NCBI RefSeq assembly: GCF_032842345.1
Contig: NZ_WBKO01000003.1
Location: 62,001-126,000, forward strand
DNA length: 64,000 nucleotides
Direction of reading: 5' to 3'
Source of the DNA: Methanoculleus caldifontis
GTDB taxonomy: Archaea > Halobacteriota > Methanomicrobia > Methanomicrobiales > Methanoculleaceae
The notes beneath the pieces were generated by a model. The model ran no database searches. It saw only the letters and a list, made by a program, of their open reading frames with translations, and was not told the DNA's origin. Within the stretch, counting starts at the first letter, position 1. Each line of letters starts with the position of its first letter. Positions 3,904 through 60,394 of this stretch are shown in pieces. The translations under genes were made by a program, and so were the position numbers.

Positions 3904-3932
3904 CGGTTCTCACACCCTGCCGGTTCCTGGAA

Positions 3933-4089
3933 CTCACGCGAAGCCGCGAAGTGCGAGCGTAGCGAGCTTGAGCACCGTCAGGTGCGAAGTGCGATGTTCC
4001 GTTAGGAACGGAGCTCGAGCACCATCAGGTGCGAGGAACGCGAAAGGGGCTGCCGGTCATTTCTTCGCGGCTTCGCGCCTTCGCGTGAG
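3933..4089. repeat. composite palindromic repeat element (MITE-like)
   Basis: Non-coding interval after polX. It opens with the 19-mer CTCACGCGAAGCCGCGAAG (3933-3951) and closes with its near inverse complement (4063-4089, with an extra CCTTCGCG). Between these ends lie two tandem units beginning TGCGA and ending GGTGCGA(A)G: 3952-3989 (38 bp) and 3990-4035 (46 bp). Each contains small hairpins such as GCACC-GTCA-GGTGC and GTTCC-GTTA-GGAAC. The same 19-mer recurs twice near 59.95 kb, and the internal units recur inside two hic loci. No ORF is credible here. Confidence 0.8.
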
Positions 4090-4128
4090 ATCCTGGGTCC
4101 GAGAACAGCCCCCGGAACCGAAAAAAAG

Positions 4129-17036: not shown

Positions 17037-17254
17037 TTACCCTCGATTGACTGCTACGTAGATGGCTGAAGACCGCGAGCGGGGAACCGGGAACCCGTCC
17101 TCCTCGAGCCCCGCGATGTGGGCTCGATCGCCTCGTGCATCCGCTCTTCCGCTTCCTCGTGGGTCGCTCCGGTGGCCACGCATCCCGGAAGATCCGGGGA
17201 GTATGCCAAGTAGTTGCTGTCGGTCTGCTCGAAGATGACAAGAAATCGATACAT
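17037..17254 (-). pseudogene. hicB: frameshifted HicB-type antitoxin
   Basis: The first frame reads MYRFLVIFEQTDSNYLAYSP, then DLPGCVATGATHEEAEERMHEAIEP, typical of HicB; it then leaves frame. The continuation HIAGLEEDGFPVPRSRSSAIYVAVN is in the adjacent frame. One missing C in the CCC run near 17124 explains the break. The ATG (17254) overlaps the hicA stop as TAATG, so the pair was translationally coupled. HicB normally neutralises HicA and represses the operon. Either a real mutation or a homopolymer sequencing error. Confidence 0.75.
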
Positions 17255-17499
17255 TATTCATCCCTCGTTTTAAGTCCTGCCTGTTTGAGAACGCTGTTCA
17301 GCGTTCCCGGAGCAAGTTTGTCTGCCGGGTGCCCGGCGATGGTGATACGACCGGTGCGATGTTCTGTAAGGAACGGAGCTTGAGCAACCGAAGGTTGCGA
17401 AGTTTTGACGGAGGCTTTATACTGCCGGTGACTGCCCCGGGTCGCCACCAGGTACCATCCGTCCGCTTCGATCATCGTTATGCAGTCTCTCACTTTCAT
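17254..17499 (-). CDS. hicA: HicA-type mRNA interferase carrying an in-frame repeat insertion
   Basis: 81 aa where HicA is normally ~60-65. The family pattern is clear: MKVRDCITMIEADGWYLVAT, RGSHRQYK with the catalytic His, then GRITIAGHPADKLAPGTLNS and VLKQAGL. Between them sit 16 extra residues, encoded by a 48-bp copy of the TGCGA...GCGAAG repeat. Removing that copy joins KASVKT to GRITI, the canonical length. The ATG at 17499 follows GGAGAAAGA. The insertion lies in the loop after the catalytic strand; whether the protein still folds is unknown. Confidence 0.75.
   Translation of the reverse strand: MKVRDCITMIEADGWYLVATRGSHRQYKASVKTSQPSVAQAPFLTEHRTGRITIAGHPADKLAPGTLNSVLKQAGLKTRDE
17355..17402 (+). 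repeat. 48-bp TGCGA...GCGAAG element inside hicA
   Basis: Begins TGCGATGTTC, has the core GGAACGGAGCTTGAGCAACC and ends GGTTGCGAAG. It contains hairpins GTTC-TGTAAG-GAAC and GCAACC-GAA-GGTTGC. It is near-identical to the unit at 3990-4035 and, read on the other strand, to 21900-21945. The length is a multiple of three, so hicA stays open. Confidence 0.8.
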
Positions 17500-17768
17500 T
17501 CTTTCTCCGCCCATACCCGCTGATCCGGAACCCCGGACGCACCATGCTTACTATAGATGATCGGAATCACGCACACATCACGCATCATCACGCATCATAA
17601 GTCCCGGTTCCCCTGACCTGTTCGTGTCTTGCTCAAGTGAGGAGGCTATCCCTTTGTATCTGGATCAAATGTCTGACAGTGCCGGCGGCCGTGCAGAAGA
17701 CGAGGAAGAGGCTTAAGGAGGAACTGACTCATCTTTTATGTAAACTGGATGACCGGGAGGAGAGGGCG

Positions 17769-20059: not shown

Positions 20060-20682
20060 GCGGCGTACCCCCGGACGTGGATGAGGTAGGCGCATTTCTC
20101 GATGAGGTGGTCGAAGGCGCGGTCCTGCCAGTTGTTTCCCGGGGTTTCGAGGCCGAGGAGGGAGACCGCGATCTCCCGCTCGAACGGCCGGGGGGCGTGG
20201 TCGTGGAGGAGGTCCCAGTAGCCGATGATGCAGTCCCGCCGGGATTCGAGGAGCGCCGGATCGGGGATATGGTCGCGCTTCTTGGCATTGATTGAACCGA
20301 GGGCGGGGAGGAGGTTCCAGAGGTCGTTGTTCTTCCAGACCGCGAACGGGAGGACGTGGTCGATGTGCATCGCCTCCGGCGAGTGGATGGCCTTCCCCGA
20401 CCAGACACAGGCGAGCGTCCCCTCCTCCGCAAAGATTGACTGGTAGATGTTCCGTGCATCCGCGACCGCCCGCTCGGTCGTCGGGGTCCTGGTGAGCAGC
20501 GAGAGCATGCACTCCTCGGTGACGGTCCCCGTCCTGTCCGCGGCCGCGGTGAACTCGGCCCACTTCTTCAGGAGGCACTCCTCCCCGGAGATGAACCCCC
20601 CGAAGTGCTCGAAGACCGTGCAGAGGTCGCGGGAGAGGGAGAACCGGCCGGGAGGGGGTGAGGTGAACGACGCGTGCCCCAT
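20047..20682 (-). CDS. HNH endonuclease-like protein, 5' end adjoining a repeat
   Basis: 211 aa from the ATG at 20682. The HNH core is MHIDHVLPFAVWKNN, then LWNLLPALGSINAKKRDHIP, a full His-Asn type metal finger. The residues upstream of 20682 that remain open in frame derive from the repeat region (20683-20850), so the native N-terminus may have been lost or shifted. The C-terminal ~80 residues are helical. Such HNH proteins often act in restriction or phage defence. It ends inside the HIT gene start. Confidence 0.65.
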   Translation of the reverse strand: MGHASFTSPPPGRFSLSRDLCTVFEHFGGFISGEECLLKKWAEFTAAADRTGTVTEECMLSLLTRTPTTERAVADARNIYQSIFAEEGTLACVWSGKAIHSPEAMHIDHVLPFAVWKNNDLWNLLPALGSINAKKRDHIPDPALLESRRDCIIGYWDLLHDHAPRPFEREIAVSLLGLETPGNNWQDRAFDHLIEKCAYLIHVRGYAAWTP

Positions 20683-21039
20683 CAGGGGCAGGCGGAGTTT
20701 GAGAAAACGCGGAGCGTTTTCGAGTGACGACGGGCCGAAGGGTGCGACTGCCTGGCAGGCAGGCCGAAGTCGTAGAAGAGGCTGAGGAACAAGCGACCGA
20801 ACAAGTAGTCGAACAAGTGACCGAACAAGTACAGCGCCTCCTGATCTGCTTGAAGGAGATGTCTGAAAAAAGGAGAGTGATACCCCGGCGGGGTGATGGC
20901 GGTGCCCACCGATACCACGTTCAGCACCCGGCGGTTCCCGCCCTCCTATCCGCCGCCGAGCACCCGCACAATCACCGCCCCCCCCTGCGACCGCCAACCC
21001 GGGGGAAAAGCGTTATCCTGATGGGCGGGTAACAGGAGT
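20683..21039. repeat. repeat-rich intergenic region with a 12-bp tandem repeat
   Basis: 20690-20770 holds hairpin-rich repeat DNA (AAAACGC-GGA-GCGTTTT; TGCCTGGCAGGCA). 20787-20834 is a four-copy 12-bp tandem repeat of GAACAAGnnnnn, with copies starting at 20787, 20799, 20811 and 20823. 20946-20995, read on the minus strand, ends in GGAVIVRVLGGG-stop, resembling the end of the frame at 22227, so a gene remnant is possible. The promoter of the MNT gene must lie at the right end. Confidence 0.55.
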
Positions 21040-21351
21040 ATGATAGGCATGCTTACGGCTGATGGCATCCTCGGCACGCTGGCGGAACACCGGGAACGGA
21101 TCAGGAGCCTTGGCGTCCGGCGGATCGGGGTCTTCGGGTCGTTTGTCCGGGGCGAAGAGCGCGAAGAGAGCGATATCGATATCCTCATCGAGTTCAGGGA
21201 AGGAGGGCGCTCCTTTGACACGTACATGGACCTCAAGTTCTTCCTCGAAGATCTCTTCGGAAGGAGAGTCGACCTCGTCGACCGCGATGCCATAAAGCCG
21301 GCTCTCGCACCACACATCCTCCGGAGCGTCAGGTATGTCCCGGGAGTATAA
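21040..21351 (+). CDS. mntA: MNT-type nucleotidyltransferase antitoxin
   Basis: 103 aa. The catalytic motif GSFVRGEEREESDIDILIEF (G-S-x10-D-x-D) and a late acid in RRVDLVDRDAIKP are intact. In the characterised MntA-HepT pairs, the nucleotidyltransferase AMPylates HepT next to its ribonuclease site and so blocks it. The reading frame overlaps the next gene by 17 bp. Start at 21040 just behind AGGAG; the in-frame ATG three codons later gives better spacing. Confidence 0.88.
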   Translation: MIGMLTADGILGTLAEHRERIRSLGVRRIGVFGSFVRGEEREESDIDILIEFREGGRSFDTYMDLKFFLEDLFGRRVDLVDRDAIKPALAPHILRSVRYVPGV

Positions 21352-21679
21352 CCTCTATCTCCACGATATCCTGGAGGCCATTGGGAGAATTGAGCGGTAT
21401 ACTCGGGGAATGGATTACGAGGAGTTCCTGGCAAACTACCTGGTGCAGGACGGAGTGATCCGGAACCTCATGGTCATCGGGGAGGCCGTGAAACTCATCC
21501 CCGAACCGCTGAAATGCGAGCATGCCGATATTTCCTGGAGGAAGATTGCAGGGATGCGCGACATCCTCATTCACGCATACTTCGGGATCCATAACGAGAT
21601 CGTGTGGGACGTTGTCAGGAACAAGATCCCTGAATTACAGATTGCAATCAGGCAGATGCTCGATAGCGAGGCTGCCTGA
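21335..21679 (+). CDS. hepT: HepT-type HEPN ribonuclease toxin
   Basis: 114 aa, full length. The HEPN motif is present and intact in MRDILIHAYFGI (R-x4-H-x-Y). ILEAIGRIERYTRGMDYEEF and LMVIGEAVKLIP are family hallmarks. It cleaves RNA unless modified by the MNT partner encoded just upstream. This is the only MNT/HEPN pair in the window with both partners apparently intact. Confidence 0.88.
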   Translation: MSREYNLYLHDILEAIGRIERYTRGMDYEEFLANYLVQDGVIRNLMVIGEAVKLIPEPLKCEHADISWRKIAGMRDILIHAYFGIHNEIVWDVVRNKIPELQIAIRQMLDSEAA

Positions 21680-21799
21680 TCACCCCTCTGCCGTGGACTG
21701 GCGCACATGGCTCCCGGTCTGCCCGGTGACGACGAATCCATACTGTTTCGAGAGTATCTTTATCATGGTCTCGCCCGATACCGGCCTAAGCCCGGGCAC
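21680..21799 (-). pseudogene. hicA: truncated HicA toxin
   Basis: 39 aa from the GTG at 21799. RPVSGETMIKILSKQYGFVV, then TGQTGSHVRQSTAEG, matches the first half of HicA including the catalytic GSH. The second half (GRxTxPxHxGxxLxxGTL) is missing; the frame stops exactly at the 3' end of hepT, which is where DNA has been lost. It overlaps the tail of the interrupted hicB, the standard hicBA order. Confidence 0.65.
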
Positions 21800-22044
21800 C
21801 CTCGGTCACCTCAAACGTCGTGATGATCGGTCTTCTCCCGTCTTCCAGCGGGAATTCTTCTAAGTACAGCTCCGTAGCCTCCTTGAGGTTGGCTACAGCC
21901 TTCGCACCTCTGGTGCTCGAGCTCCCGCCCTTACGGCCGGTCGCACTCCTCTACCGTCTTGCCCTGGCTGACGGTGCCGATCTCCGGGCACTCCGCGACG
22001 TACATATCCTCTTCCCTGTAGAGCACGGCCGTGAACGTCCCCAT
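21786..22044 (-). pseudogene. hicB: HicB antitoxin interrupted by a 46-bp repeat
   Basis: The first part reads MGTFTAVLYREEDMYVAECP, then EIGTVSQGKTVEE, and hits a stop after CDRP. The second part reads AVANLKEATELYLEEFPLED, then GRRPIITTFEVTEGARA-stop. Deleting 21900-21945 fuses them (KTVEE-AVANLKEAT) into a perfect 70-codon HicB of the partially inactivated RNase-H type. Thus a 46-bp repeat split an otherwise intact gene. Translated parts are coupled to hicA by overlap. Confidence 0.8.
21900..21945 (-). repeat. 46-bp TGCGA...GCGAAG element inside hicB
   Basis: On the minus strand it begins TGCGACCGGC, continues GGGAGCTCGAGCACC and ends AGGTGCGAAG. Same family as 17355-17402 and 3990-4035. 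Its exact removal restores hicB, so both edges of the insertion can be placed to the base. Confidence 0.8.
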
Positions 22045-22226: not shown

Positions 22227-22553
22227 CTACCCGCCGCCCAGCACCTTCACGACCACCTCCACCACCCCACCGACGACCCCGCCGGCCCTGGCGCTCACCG
22301 TCGAACCCCTCCTCTCTCGCACCTTACGGTGCTCGAACTCCTGCTCCGCACCTCGCACCTGTGGTGCTCGAACTCCGTTCCTGGTGGAACATCGTTCTTC
22401 GGTGCTCATGCTCCGGCCCTTCAGGCCATCGCACCTTTCGGCCAGTCGTTCCTGACCTGCCTTCTCCGCCCACCACCCCTCCAGAGCCCGGATCCTGTCC
22501 AATCTAGACGACGCCATCCGAACCGCAGTGCGAGCGTCTTCAGTGGACATCAT
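22227..22553 (-). CDS. hypothetical protein whose middle is made of repeat units
   Basis: 108 aa from the ATG at 22553. The N-terminus (EDARTAVRMASSRLDRIRAL) is a helix-forming segment; the C-terminus (ARAGGVVGGVVEVVVKVLGGG) is a glycine-spaced hydrophobic helix. The central ~40 residues (CDGLKGRS... to EFEHRKVRE) are a translation of repeat DNA at 22318-22441. The original may have been a ~65-aa membrane-anchored protein. Alternatively the frame is fortuitous. Confidence 0.35.
   Translation of the reverse strand: MMSTEDARTAVRMASSRLDRIRALEGWWAEKAGQERLAERCDGLKGRSMSTEERCSTRNGVRAPQVRGAEQEFEHRKVRERRGSTVSARAGGVVGGVVEVVVKVLGGG
22318..22441 (-). repeat. array of three TGCGA...GCGAG repeat units
   Basis: Read on the minus strand: TGCGATGGCC...GAGCACCGAAG, then TGTTCCACCAGGAACGGAGT...CAGGTGCGAG, then GTGCGGAGCAGGAGTTCGAG...AAGGTGCGAG. 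These share the GGAG(C/T)TCGAGCACC core with copies near 4.0, 17.4 and 21.9 kb. The run lies inside a minus-strand open frame. Confidence 0.7.
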
Positions 22554-22671
22554 CCCCCAAGCAATTTTTCTCAGTGCCGGGGCATAGATCGCCCCGACAA
22601 ACGACCCTCTTCAGACAGAGATATGTAGATTGAAGCACCAGAGGATCATATATCGCAGAGGTGAAGTTGCC

Positions 22672-22869
22672 ATGAGCCAGGTAAAAGAGGAGATCATCAA
22701 CGAGTTGAACGACCTCCCACCTCGGACCTACGGTGAGGTGCTCGATTTCATCCGGTTCCTCAAATCCCGGCGCAGGAAGGCCGCCCCGGACACCGCCCTC
22801 GCGAGCGAACCCGTGCTCCGGAAAGACTGGCTCCGACCCGAGGAGGAAGAAGCGTGGAGCGATTTGTAA
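22672..22869 (+). CDS. small antitoxin-like protein (DUF2281-like)
   Basis: 65 aa. MSQVKEEIINELNDLPPRTY, then GEVLDFIRFLKSRRRK, is the N-terminal signature of short DUF2281/VapB-like antitoxins; the acidic tail EEEEAWSDL is the likely toxin-binding part. The start is at 22672 behind GAGGTGAAG. Its end overlaps the downstream mazF-like gene by 16 bp. The antitoxin appears intact while its toxin is frameshifted. Confidence 0.7.
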   Translation: MSQVKEEIINELNDLPPRTYGEVLDFIRFLKSRRRKAAPDTALASEPVLRKDWLRPEEEEAWSDL

Positions 22870-23190
22870 GAGGCGATGTTGTCGTTGTGCCGTTTCCCTT
22901 CTCGGACCTGTCGACGGTGAAGCGGCGGCCAGCTCTTGTCGTTGCGGCACCTGGCGGTGACGATGTCATCCTCTGTCAAATCACGAGCCCAGCAGGTCCG
23001 GGATCGCTACGCCGTCGGTATTACTGAACTCGACTTTGTAGAGGGAACACTCCACAAACCGAGCAATATTCGGCCGAACCGGCTCTTTTCTGCCAGTGTC
23101 GACCTGATTCTTTATCGAGCCGGACGTCTCAATGACCAGGCTGTCACGTCGGTCATCGATAGGATCATCGGGATCCTGCAGGCGGAGTGA
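22854..23190 (+). pseudogene. frameshifted MazF/PemK-type toxin
   Basis: The GTG at 22854 opens MERFVRGDVVVVPFPFSDLS, then VKRRPALVVAA, the MazF/PemK core, up to ILCQITS; it then runs out of frame to a stop at 23025. The other frame carries QQVRDRYAVGITELDFVEGT, then LHKPSNIRPNRLF and VIDRIIGILQ. One extra C in AGCCCAG near 22988 accounts for the break. MazF cuts mRNA at short motifs; as written this copy is dead. Confidence 0.75.
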
Positions 23191-23444
23191 CTCCCAGCCG
23201 GGAACCCGCAGTTGAGGCCTTCGCGCTATTTCACTTTCAACCCGGGCACGGCCCGCCTTTAACAATCTCTTCTCCTCCAGACACTCCTATGGTACATACC
23301 CTTCTCCTCCGCAGCGACCAGACCTTTTTCAGAGATCCTGACGTCTTCGAGCCGGCAGATCGTCTCTCCGAGCACCTCCACCCCCGCGACGCCCGGAACT
23401 CCTCTGGTCCTCCCGGGACAGGAACTCGTGCTCCACGATTGTTT

Positions 23445-23472
23445 AATATATTGAACGATCATTCAATATATT
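23445..23472 (+). promoter_or_regulatory. operator-like inverted repeat over the promoter of the wHTH-nucleotidyltransferase gene
   Basis: AATATATTGAA (23445-23455) and its exact inverse TTCAATATATT (23462-23472) are separated by CGATCA. The left arm contains TTTAATATAT, a TATA box about 26-30 bp before the ATG at 23475, so transcription would start at or near the ATG. The encoded protein has a winged helix and is the natural candidate for binding here. Confidence 0.65.
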
Positions 23473-23474
23473 GT

Positions 23475-24020
23475 ATGCTCCGGGAGTTCGAGACGTTTGT
23501 CGGGTTCCGGGTCCTCGCCTGGTTCCTCACTCACCCCACGGGCGAGATCCACATCAATAAACTCGCCCGGGAGATCGGGGTCAGTCCGGGAAGCGTCAAA
23601 GCGTATGCCGATGCCTTCGAGCGCGACGGGTTGATCACCGTCACGCGCCTCGGCACCGCACGGCTCCTCTCCCTCGACAACGACTCCTTTGCCGTCCGGG
23701 AGTTGAAGCGGGCCTGCATGGCCCTCCTGCTCGTCCGGGCAGGCATCGAGGACCTCGCGCCGGAGAGCATCGCGGTCGCGGTCTACGGGAGCACTGCGGC
23801 GGGGACCTTCGATGAGCAGAGCGACGTCGACATTCTGATCATCGGTGACGAGAGTCAGGTCGATCACGGCCGGGTGCCGGCACTTGAGGCGGAGACCGAT
23901 CGAGAGGTGCAGTTGACGGTTGTCCCCTACTACCGGTGGGAGCAGATGAAAGAGGAAGGCGACCCGTTTGTCGCGAGCGTCCTGCGAAACCACATGCTTG
24001 TTCGAGGGGTTCGCCTATGA
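23475..24020 (+). CDS. winged-helix + nucleotidyltransferase protein
   Basis: 181 aa. Residues ~1-75 form a winged helix (VGFRVLAWFLTHPTGEIHIN, LAREIGVSPGSVKAYADAFE). Residues ~95-175 form an MNT-type nucleotidyltransferase with YGSTAAGTFDEQSDVDILII (G-S-x10-D-x-D). The architecture is known from archaeal MNT/HEPN modules, where the partner HEPN usually follows; no HEPN gene with its own start is seen directly downstream. ATG 2 bp after a perfect inverted repeat implies leaderless, self-controlled expression. Confidence 0.8.
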   Translation: MLREFETFVGFRVLAWFLTHPTGEIHINKLAREIGVSPGSVKAYADAFERDGLITVTRLGTARLLSLDNDSFAVRELKRACMALLLVRAGIEDLAPESIAVAVYGSTAAGTFDEQSDVDILIIGDESQVDHGRVPALEAETDREVQLTVVPYYRWEQMKEEGDPFVASVLRNHMLVRGVRL

Positions 24021-24140
24021 GGTGGCGGGAGTGCGTCGACCGCGGCCTCTTCCCCCCCTCCTCTTTTCGCGGACTGAACCTTTGTGCCGGCGTACGGGAG
24101 ATGTCTATACTAAAGAGAACAGCGCATATCCCGATCAGAA

Positions 24141-24460
24141 ATGGATACCGTCACCCGCGAGGCCGGTGGGGAGTGCGCGAGGATCATCCGCATTCTCCAG
24201 GGAAACAAGAGATACCTGGAAGAGACCTATCGCTTCGGGTCCATCGGCATCTTCGGCTCGTGCCGGCTTGGCGAGGAGCGCGAGGGGAGCGACGTGGACA
24301 TCCTGGTCGAGTTCTCCGAGGTGCCGGGGATCTTCGGGTTTCTCGAGGCTTCGAGCGGTACCTCTCCGAGATCCCCGGCCGAAAAGTGGACCTGGTCGAA
24401 AAGAGCGCGCTCAAACCCCGCATCGGCCGCCGCATCTTGAATGAGGTCATCTACGTATGA
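24141..24460 (+). pseudogene. mntA: frameshifted MNT-type nucleotidyltransferase antitoxin
   Basis: MDTVTREAGGECARIIRILQ, then the site GSCRLGEEREGSDVDILVEF, is intact up to GIFGFLE. The rest, GFERYLSEIPGRKVDLVEKS then ALKPRIGRRILNEVIYV, lies one base out of frame. A G lost at the GAGGC run (24345-24349) explains it. As written the protein ends in an unrelated Arg/Ser-rich tail. The downstream hepT overlaps by 4 bp and is intact. Confidence 0.75.
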
Positions 24461-59671: not shown

Positions 59672-60394
59672 GATGACATCTCCGTCGTCTCCTGCTCATG
59701 GGTGTCGGCATCCTCAGTACTTTACTAATTCAGACATCCGACATCGAACGGTGCAGCCTCGCGTGACGACTTAAAACGGAGTTAGCAGTACCCGGACACG
59801 GGACTCGCATCTCCGATGCTCCAACTCCGCTCCGTAGGAGCGTCGTCTTTCGAAGCCTGAGGGCTTCTCACGCCCCGGTTCTACGAAGTATCACACTTCG
59901 CCCCTGGCGGTGCTCAAGCTCGTTTACGCTCGTACTTCGCGTTCTTCGCGGCTTCGCGTGAGTTTTCAGCACTGTGGTGATAGAGCCTCACGCGAAGCCG
60001 CGAAGTCGCGAAGGACGCCTCCCCCGTAGGGTGCGACGGTTCAGAGCGCGAGGGTTCCCTCAGGACCGGAGCGTGAGAGGCCATCAGGCTTCGAGAGAAT
60101 TCGAGGGTTTGGCCTCCTGAGGACCGTCTCAAACATTTTAGCGGAGTACTGATCCCACATGGCGCCGTTCTCCGGGCAGTTTTGCGCTGTTCCTGTGCGG
60201 TTTGCCGGCTTCGCCACGATAATTCCGGGGAGATTTATTCTCTACCGACAATTATAATTACACCACAATATAATCGGCGCCGGCAGCTGTTCGCCCTACG
60301 TATCTCACCCGCTCGGTCACCGGGCCTGTAGCGACCCGGGCCCCGTGAGCCGGAACAGGGGCGTGGGGGCGACGGCAGCCAGAGGGTGATATCC
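59672..60394. repeat. repeat-rich intergenic region
   Basis: 723 bp without a credible gene. 59896-59934 is a minus-strand TGCGA-type unit (compare 3952-3989). 59944-59962 and 59987-60005 are exact inverted copies of the 19-mer found at 3933, with 24 bp between, forming a long hairpin. 60030-60130 holds further small dyads (GAGGGTTCCCTC; GGCCTCCTGAGGACC). A TATA-rich ATTATAATTACACCACAATATAA at 60249-60271 is probably the promoter of the next gene. Confidence 0.6.

Follow-up and report, generated by a model that had tools for sequence, protein, structure and literature searches.

The movement of very small interspersed repeats has long been an unsolved problem in bacteria and mitochondria. Double-hairpin elements (DHE) occur in Allomyces. 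The DHE and the repetitive hairpin-forming elements (RHE) of mitochondrial DNA are short two-hairpin elements that occur dispersed and in tandem, in intergenic as well as coding sequence, with compensatory changes in their stems and without a known enzyme (PMC2800124). In prokaryotes, many small dispersed non-coding repeats are MITEs (PMC2229807), and the Rickettsia palindromic elements and the palindromic repeats of Methanocaldococcus jannaschii lie within open reading frames and in some cases keep the frame (PMC2229807 and the work cited there). For Methanoculleus marisnigri, the relevant part of a satellite survey lists families of period 45 and 51 as tandem arrays alone, with no account there of dispersal, structure or gene insertion (PMC6749651). 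Here we describe a set of two-hairpin units from Methanoculleus caldifontis and its relatives that, by comparison of their sequences, are a dispersed, mobile, non-coding repeat family, both in structure and in mobility.

Results

On the minus strand of the window (the whole stretch of 64,000 nucleotides analysed here), hicB is split by a 46-bp double-hairpin unit at 21900..21945 into a 5' part of codons 1-33 (21946..22044) and a 3' part (21786..21899) that reads AVANLKEAT...EGARA to the stop. The unit is laid out as TGCGA-[CCGGCCGTAAGGGCGG]-GAGCTCGA-[GCACCAGAGGTGC]-GAAG and matches covariance model R1 (see below), to whose seed it belongs, at 21902-21945 with 57.3 bits. Its sequence, TGCGACCGGCCGTAAGGGCGGGAGCTCGAGCACCAGAGGTGCGAAG (21945..21900 on the minus strand), parts the HicB residues KTVEE from AVANLKEAT, and when the flanks are joined without it they encode a 70-codon HicB, just as the original prediction had it, with a weak similarity to HicB-like Pfam families that stays below the curated cut-offs. 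The edges had also been said to be placeable to the base; they are ambiguous by 2 nt, because the empty site reads GTAGAGG/AGGCGGTAGCC (the second part beginning AGGC) and its 'AG' could belong to the left or to the right flank.

When 35 Methanoculleus genomes were searched by tblastn, many species proved to have an uninterrupted hicB (77-94% identity), and in blastn alignments most of the genus copies differed from the split locus by a single gap of 46-48 bases. Whether relatives lack the unit had been put forward as a check, and about 19 genomes do lack it; the unit in the M. caldifontis gene is thus a derived insertion, not a deletion elsewhere. The same site is filled differently in two relatives: the insert is 46 bp in our genome (hairpins A1B1) and 44 bp in G015 (A2B1), both shifting the frame, and 45 bp in G029 (A1B2), where the frame is kept. 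The hicA gene beside the split hicB is cut to a remnant of 28 codons (MIKILSKQYGFVVTGQTGSHVRQSTAEG; 21680..21766, minus strand) but is full length in G015 and others, so that the hicAB module in our genome is dead or dying. In G015 (L208, G015:C155) the hicA toxin gene adjoining the hicB broken by the 44-bp unit is full length. Unit insertion need not be the cause of hicAB decay, hicA being truncated in one genome and intact in another with the same site filled.

Three further genomes carry a 51-bp in-frame hicB insert with a strong hairpin (GTGCATCCGGTGACGGATGCAC), placed after GTACTTAGAGGAA and varying among the three (L206 in G010, L207 in G005 and L215 in G028); it looked like a second family but had no copy elsewhere among the loci examined and was set aside. 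A toxin-antitoxin-rich island in the window (21040-21679 and 22630-24460) includes an MNT nucleotidyltransferase with a HepT-like HEPN protein, confirmed by Pfam, and further MazF-like and MNT/HEPN genes judged by eye.

The other hic locus of the window was likewise predicted to carry the repeat, and a related unit is indeed found in its hicA, on the plus strand at 17355..17402 (R1 match 17355-17400, also in the model seed). It lies antisense to a hicA frame of 86 aa that reads through it (17254..17514, minus strand; Pfam HicA_toxin, E 3.9e-16). Of the unit lengths originally given, 46 and 48 bp, the first holds for hicB, whereas the hicA unit adds a net 47 bp relative to G007, the nearest relative without it. 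About 15 bp downstream of the unit, our hicA has one extra T (GCTTTATA versus GC-TTATA) that restores the frame, and the 47-bp insert and the compensating T together leave HicA open at 17254-17514. Eighteen orthologous copies lack the unit, which marks it as a real insertion; G033 has it, and G012 retains a remnant. Across this locus (17054-17254 and 17254-17514) the hicA frame is kept and the partner hicB is apparently frameshifted.

Filled and empty sites were also paired for a hicA gene of G010 (46 bp; empty site GGGGAA/GGTGGG) and for the loci L166/L120 (45 bp) and L079/L212 (46 bp). The G010 insert shifts the frame, as the one in our hicB does, and that of L166 is in frame. A nitroreductase gene of our own genome contains a partial unit (+30/-3 nt) that begins at a TGCGA native in the G028 orthologue. 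Inserts are sense to the host gene in hicB and G010 hicA and antisense in the second hic locus and the nitroreductase gene. None of the filled/empty sites examined shows inverted ends, and the junctions scatter by 0-2 nt.

A natural hotspot lies in a multicopy short Zn-ribbon gene (weak DUF7685 similarity) whose native sequence is TGCGAGG/GGTGTTATGC. Differing unit arrays occupy exactly this native TGCGAGG in 11 copies, which belong to 8 genomes; 26 copies are empty, and the right junctions, where seen, have lost 0-2 G. Mapping the filled state onto the gene tree takes 9 changes, and a single filled clade is rejected (p 2.5e-6). A reduced tree, built from the upstream part only and without three rows on doubtful or long branches, needs 7 changes, of which 6 are forced by starred branches, and rejects one clade at p 6.6e-5; overall the count is 7-9 changes, 5-6 of them forced by starred branches. 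These trees exclude one insertion that was then simply inherited. The recurrence may in part reflect gene conversion between paralogues, or one gain that was precisely lost several times.

Among units with no module upstream, 52 of 269 are preceded by GCGARG, against a background of 0.15%, although some of these may have unrecognised upstream modules; RG precedes the first unit in 64% of cases. Units insert precisely and repeatedly, with a preference for positions after sequence that matches the unit's own end (GCGARG, TGCGAGG). The match is just 2-3 nt at some targets (CCGG at the second hic locus, GGAA at G010 hicA). Recombination over long homology, named at the outset as a way to explain the insertion sites away, was not seen: insert and target have no more than a short match in common, TGCGAG or GCGARG, which resembles an insertion seed. 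The prediction of a transposed or template-copied unit is supported by sites with and without the unit at hicB, two hicA genes, the Zn-ribbon gene and elsewhere, as well as by the repeated filling of one site.

Each unit obeys the grammar NNC-GA-(hairpin A)-GA-GNNY-GA-(hairpin B)-GA, that is, two 'GA-hairpin-GA' modules in 44-48 bp, beginning TGCGA or AACGA and ending GGTGCGA in the same sense; TGCGAG(G) is also a unit end. Units chain in tandem arrays. In a scan of the loci examined, consecutive modules were 4 nt apart in 349 cases, 5 nt in 104 and seldom otherwise, where shuffled sequence gives 2-4. With windows picked by flanking anchors alone, 83.5% of hairpin A cells were paired as compared to 61.8% with arms shuffled among units. 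In an alignment of 44 units, 93.0% of the cells of the whole structure were paired (80.7% shuffled, 25-42% slid) and 75 cells were doubly changed (26 shuffled); these shuffle tests overstate significance, as unit copies are related by descent. With 81 distinct A stems among the units, a chance origin of the fold is untenable. The 167 distinct combinations of A and B stems among 355 units, together with the differing A/B pairings at hicB, indicate that the hairpins behave as exchangeable cassettes. Outside hairpin A, the triplet before it pairs with the linker after it across tandem G.A/A.G (TGC/GCA 65, AAC/GTT 61, TGC/GCT 53 and CGC/GCG 21); such pairing beyond the GA feet is the pattern of a tandem G.A mismatch within a helix.

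The loops, mostly C-G closed, are GNA (386) or GNYA (204) in the loci examined, while the RNA-favoured GNRA accounts for 33. GNA and GNNA loops on G-C stems form extraordinarily stable DNA mini-hairpins, d(GCGAAGC) melting at 78 C (PMC4686876), and the arrays contain exact GCGAAGC between GA feet. As single-stranded DNA, the units of the window fold more stably than shuffles (z -2.2 to -3.6), and the loop types point to DNA over RNA as the probable folded form. The Rfam 15 covariance models gave no match to the units.

The pattern first put forward for the family, TGCGA-N-GCGAAG, has four matches in the window against 0.43 expected, but two of the four are not family members, and it was replaced first by a core pattern and later by a covariance model. 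The 13-bp core CGGAGYWYGAGCA matches 66 times in the 2.6-Mb genome, as compared to 4 for a reversed-pattern control, tens of times in most Methanoculleus relatives and at background level elsewhere; the named records that contain it are from Methanoculleus and related Methanomicrobiales. Model R1 was built from 44 units, and the copy numbers it yields are lower bounds, 150 candidates per genome being scored: at least 160 units in our genome, and more than 100 in most Methanoculleus species, whereas about ten species have 0-12 and there are few units beyond Methanoculleus. The sequence is therefore repeated well beyond chance, as had been supposed, and the family is largely confined to Methanoculleus. 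Two near-perfect units in another family of the order (L293, G129) may represent transfer or contamination. The strict core pattern had no match in viral contigs, and viral carriage of the units was rejected on that ground. A runs test of unit orientation by replichore or strand domains gave no signal.

Within the window, R1 identifies 11 units at E<0.001, its two seed units from the hic loci among them. A tandem pair lies on the plus strand, the first unit (3952..3987) composed of a mini-hairpin A (GA-GCGTAGC-GA) and a hairpin B and the second (3990..4034, 62 bits) adjoining a CTCACGCGAAG-type repeat. On the minus strand are a tandem three, consisting of a partial unit (22399..22433), a complete one (22353..22396) and a third (22317..22350), and two further units (59805..59847 and, with a mini-hairpin, 59898..59941). 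Two weak or degenerate units are on the plus strand (60032..60094, E 2.6e-4; 20666..20723, E 9.6e-4). A second interspersed repeat, CTCACGCGAAGCCGCGAAG...CTTCGCGGCTTCGCGTGAG, occurs at 3925-4110 and in 82 loci examined and often brackets units; its CTCACGCGAAG was counted 154 times, and it includes the mini-hairpin sequence GCGAAGC.

The survey of candidate enzymes covered Y1_Tnp (PF01797) and RVT_1. A link to a REP-associated, RAYT-like transposase had been suggested and was not supported: Y1_Tnp gave no hit in our genome, with control genomes positive, and occurs in 7 of the 35 Methanoculleus genomes, five of which (G002, G013, G020, G022 and G023) have 0-7 units each. The other two are both copy-rich: G010, with two Y1 genes, and G031, with a hit below the curated cut-off; nearly all copy-rich genomes among the 35 searched lack the domain. 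RAYT/Y1 was thus rejected as the driver, being absent here and present mainly in copy-poor species. RVT_1 was found in 3 of the 35 genomes and not in our own, and a reverse transcriptase was rejected as the driver because the domain is nearly absent in the genus.

Discussion

From the junctions and targets we infer, at about even odds, that the units spread by template switching, in which a short match seeds the copying of DNA. While the element strand is unpaired, on the lagging strand or during repair, its mini-hairpins would halt the polymerase or knock it off; the growing 3' end, if it carries ...GCGAGG or a shorter match such as RG, could then pair with that motif where a unit ends at another locus, copy one or more units and rejoin its first template through another short match. 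No dedicated transposase would be needed, and such copying would account for the lack of terminal inverted repeats, the 0-2 nt scatter, the growth of tandem arrays, the exchange of hairpins and the partial units seen now and then. The hicB insert would represent one such event, in a toxin-antitoxin gene able to tolerate loss. The 2-3 nt target matches at the second hic locus and G010 hicA count against this mechanism. Stems also remain paired across long divergence, so that selection on the fold, perhaps via a bound protein, may act. Our fuller reading, to which we assign a probability of roughly 0.4, is that the family is transposase-free selfish DNA, made of chained, extra-stable mini-hairpins (GNA/GNNA loops, tandem G.A feet), that would spread by template switching at native TGCGAGG, strike the same sites repeatedly and swap its cassettes.

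The main rival, possible but rather unlikely, is single-strand transposition in trans, modelled on the IS200/IS605 and REP/RAYT systems, in which an HUH-like or other nuclease would bind the hairpins on one strand, cut at the foot and insert the unit 3' of a short GARG. A single-strand (HUH-type) transposase would equally be expected to prefer a motif just 5' of the insert and to leave no target duplication, the same site is struck repeatedly, and the asymmetry of hairpins and loops, with GA feet and GNA loops on one strand alone, suits such an enzyme as well. Its usual domain is nonetheless missing from our genome and found mostly in copy-poor species, the targets are not strict (CCGG and GGAA occur, and RG precedes in 64%), and the partial units and scattered junctions also speak against it.

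Improbable, in our judgment, is a functional structured element, such as a protein-binding or nucleoid site or an mRNA 3' end, that is kept by selection, spreads mostly by ordinary recombination and gene conversion, and enters genes as a by-product. The strong pairing constraint, the DNA-type loops and the more than 100 copies in most species speak for it. The disruption of genes in either orientation, the differing arrays at one site and the several species with few or no units argue against function as the main explanation. Still harder to credit is a MITE, a non-autonomous derivative of a DDE insertion sequence mobilised by that sequence's transposase: the units are small, dispersed and non-coding, but they have neither terminal inverted repeats nor a consistent target duplication, their stems vary freely, and they chain in tandem. 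A SINE-like RNA route, in which units are transcribed, folded as RNA and reverse-transcribed, was already disfavoured and is very improbable despite the compact covarying two-hairpin fold and small size, given the scarcity of RVT_1 and its absence from our genome, a GNYA excess over GNRA of about 6:1, the lack of an Rfam match, and inserts both sense and antisense to host genes.

With filled and empty sites, a natural multiply hit hotspot, a DNA-type structural code and copy-rich genomes that lack the usual transposase, the movement of very small repeats becomes directly testable in this genus, where the units seem to have introduced both in-frame and frameshifting changes into genes, toxin-antitoxin genes among them.

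As for described repeats, the satellites of period 45 and 51 in M. marisnigri may include these tandem arrays, with which they agree in period. The palindromic repeats of Rickettsia and M. jannaschii are larger, about 100-150 bp, whereas our units measure 44-48 bp, many inserts shift the frame, and sister species have precise empty sites. Membership in the REP/RAYT, MITE and IS200/605 classes is in each case contradicted at a defining feature. Like REP and BIME sequences, the units are small palindromes in hundreds of copies with mosaic tandem arrays and one-strand hairpins; however, each side of the foot has GA, with TGC/AAC...GCA/GTT beyond it, in place of GTAG/CGTC, the modules stand in one orientation instead of alternating, and the cognate Y1 transposase is missing here and in nearly all copy-rich genomes. 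MITEs differ in having terminal inverted repeats and a fixed target duplication, in place of the variable 0-2 nt found here. IS200/IS605 elements share one-strand hairpins and insertion 3' of a short motif without target duplication, here with an RG-rich/TGCGAGG preference that is not strict, but Y1 TnpA is neither encoded by the units nor detected in our genome, and the units chain and swap hairpins. The closest analogues are the double-hairpin elements of mitochondrial DNA. Compared by features, with no claim of common descent or sequence relation, both have two adjacent hairpins per unit and are mobile, including into coding sequence; DHE are organellar, whereas the units described here populate an archaeal chromosome, keep to a fixed GA-hairpin-GA grammar with GNA/GNNA loops and return to TGCGAGG as a target.
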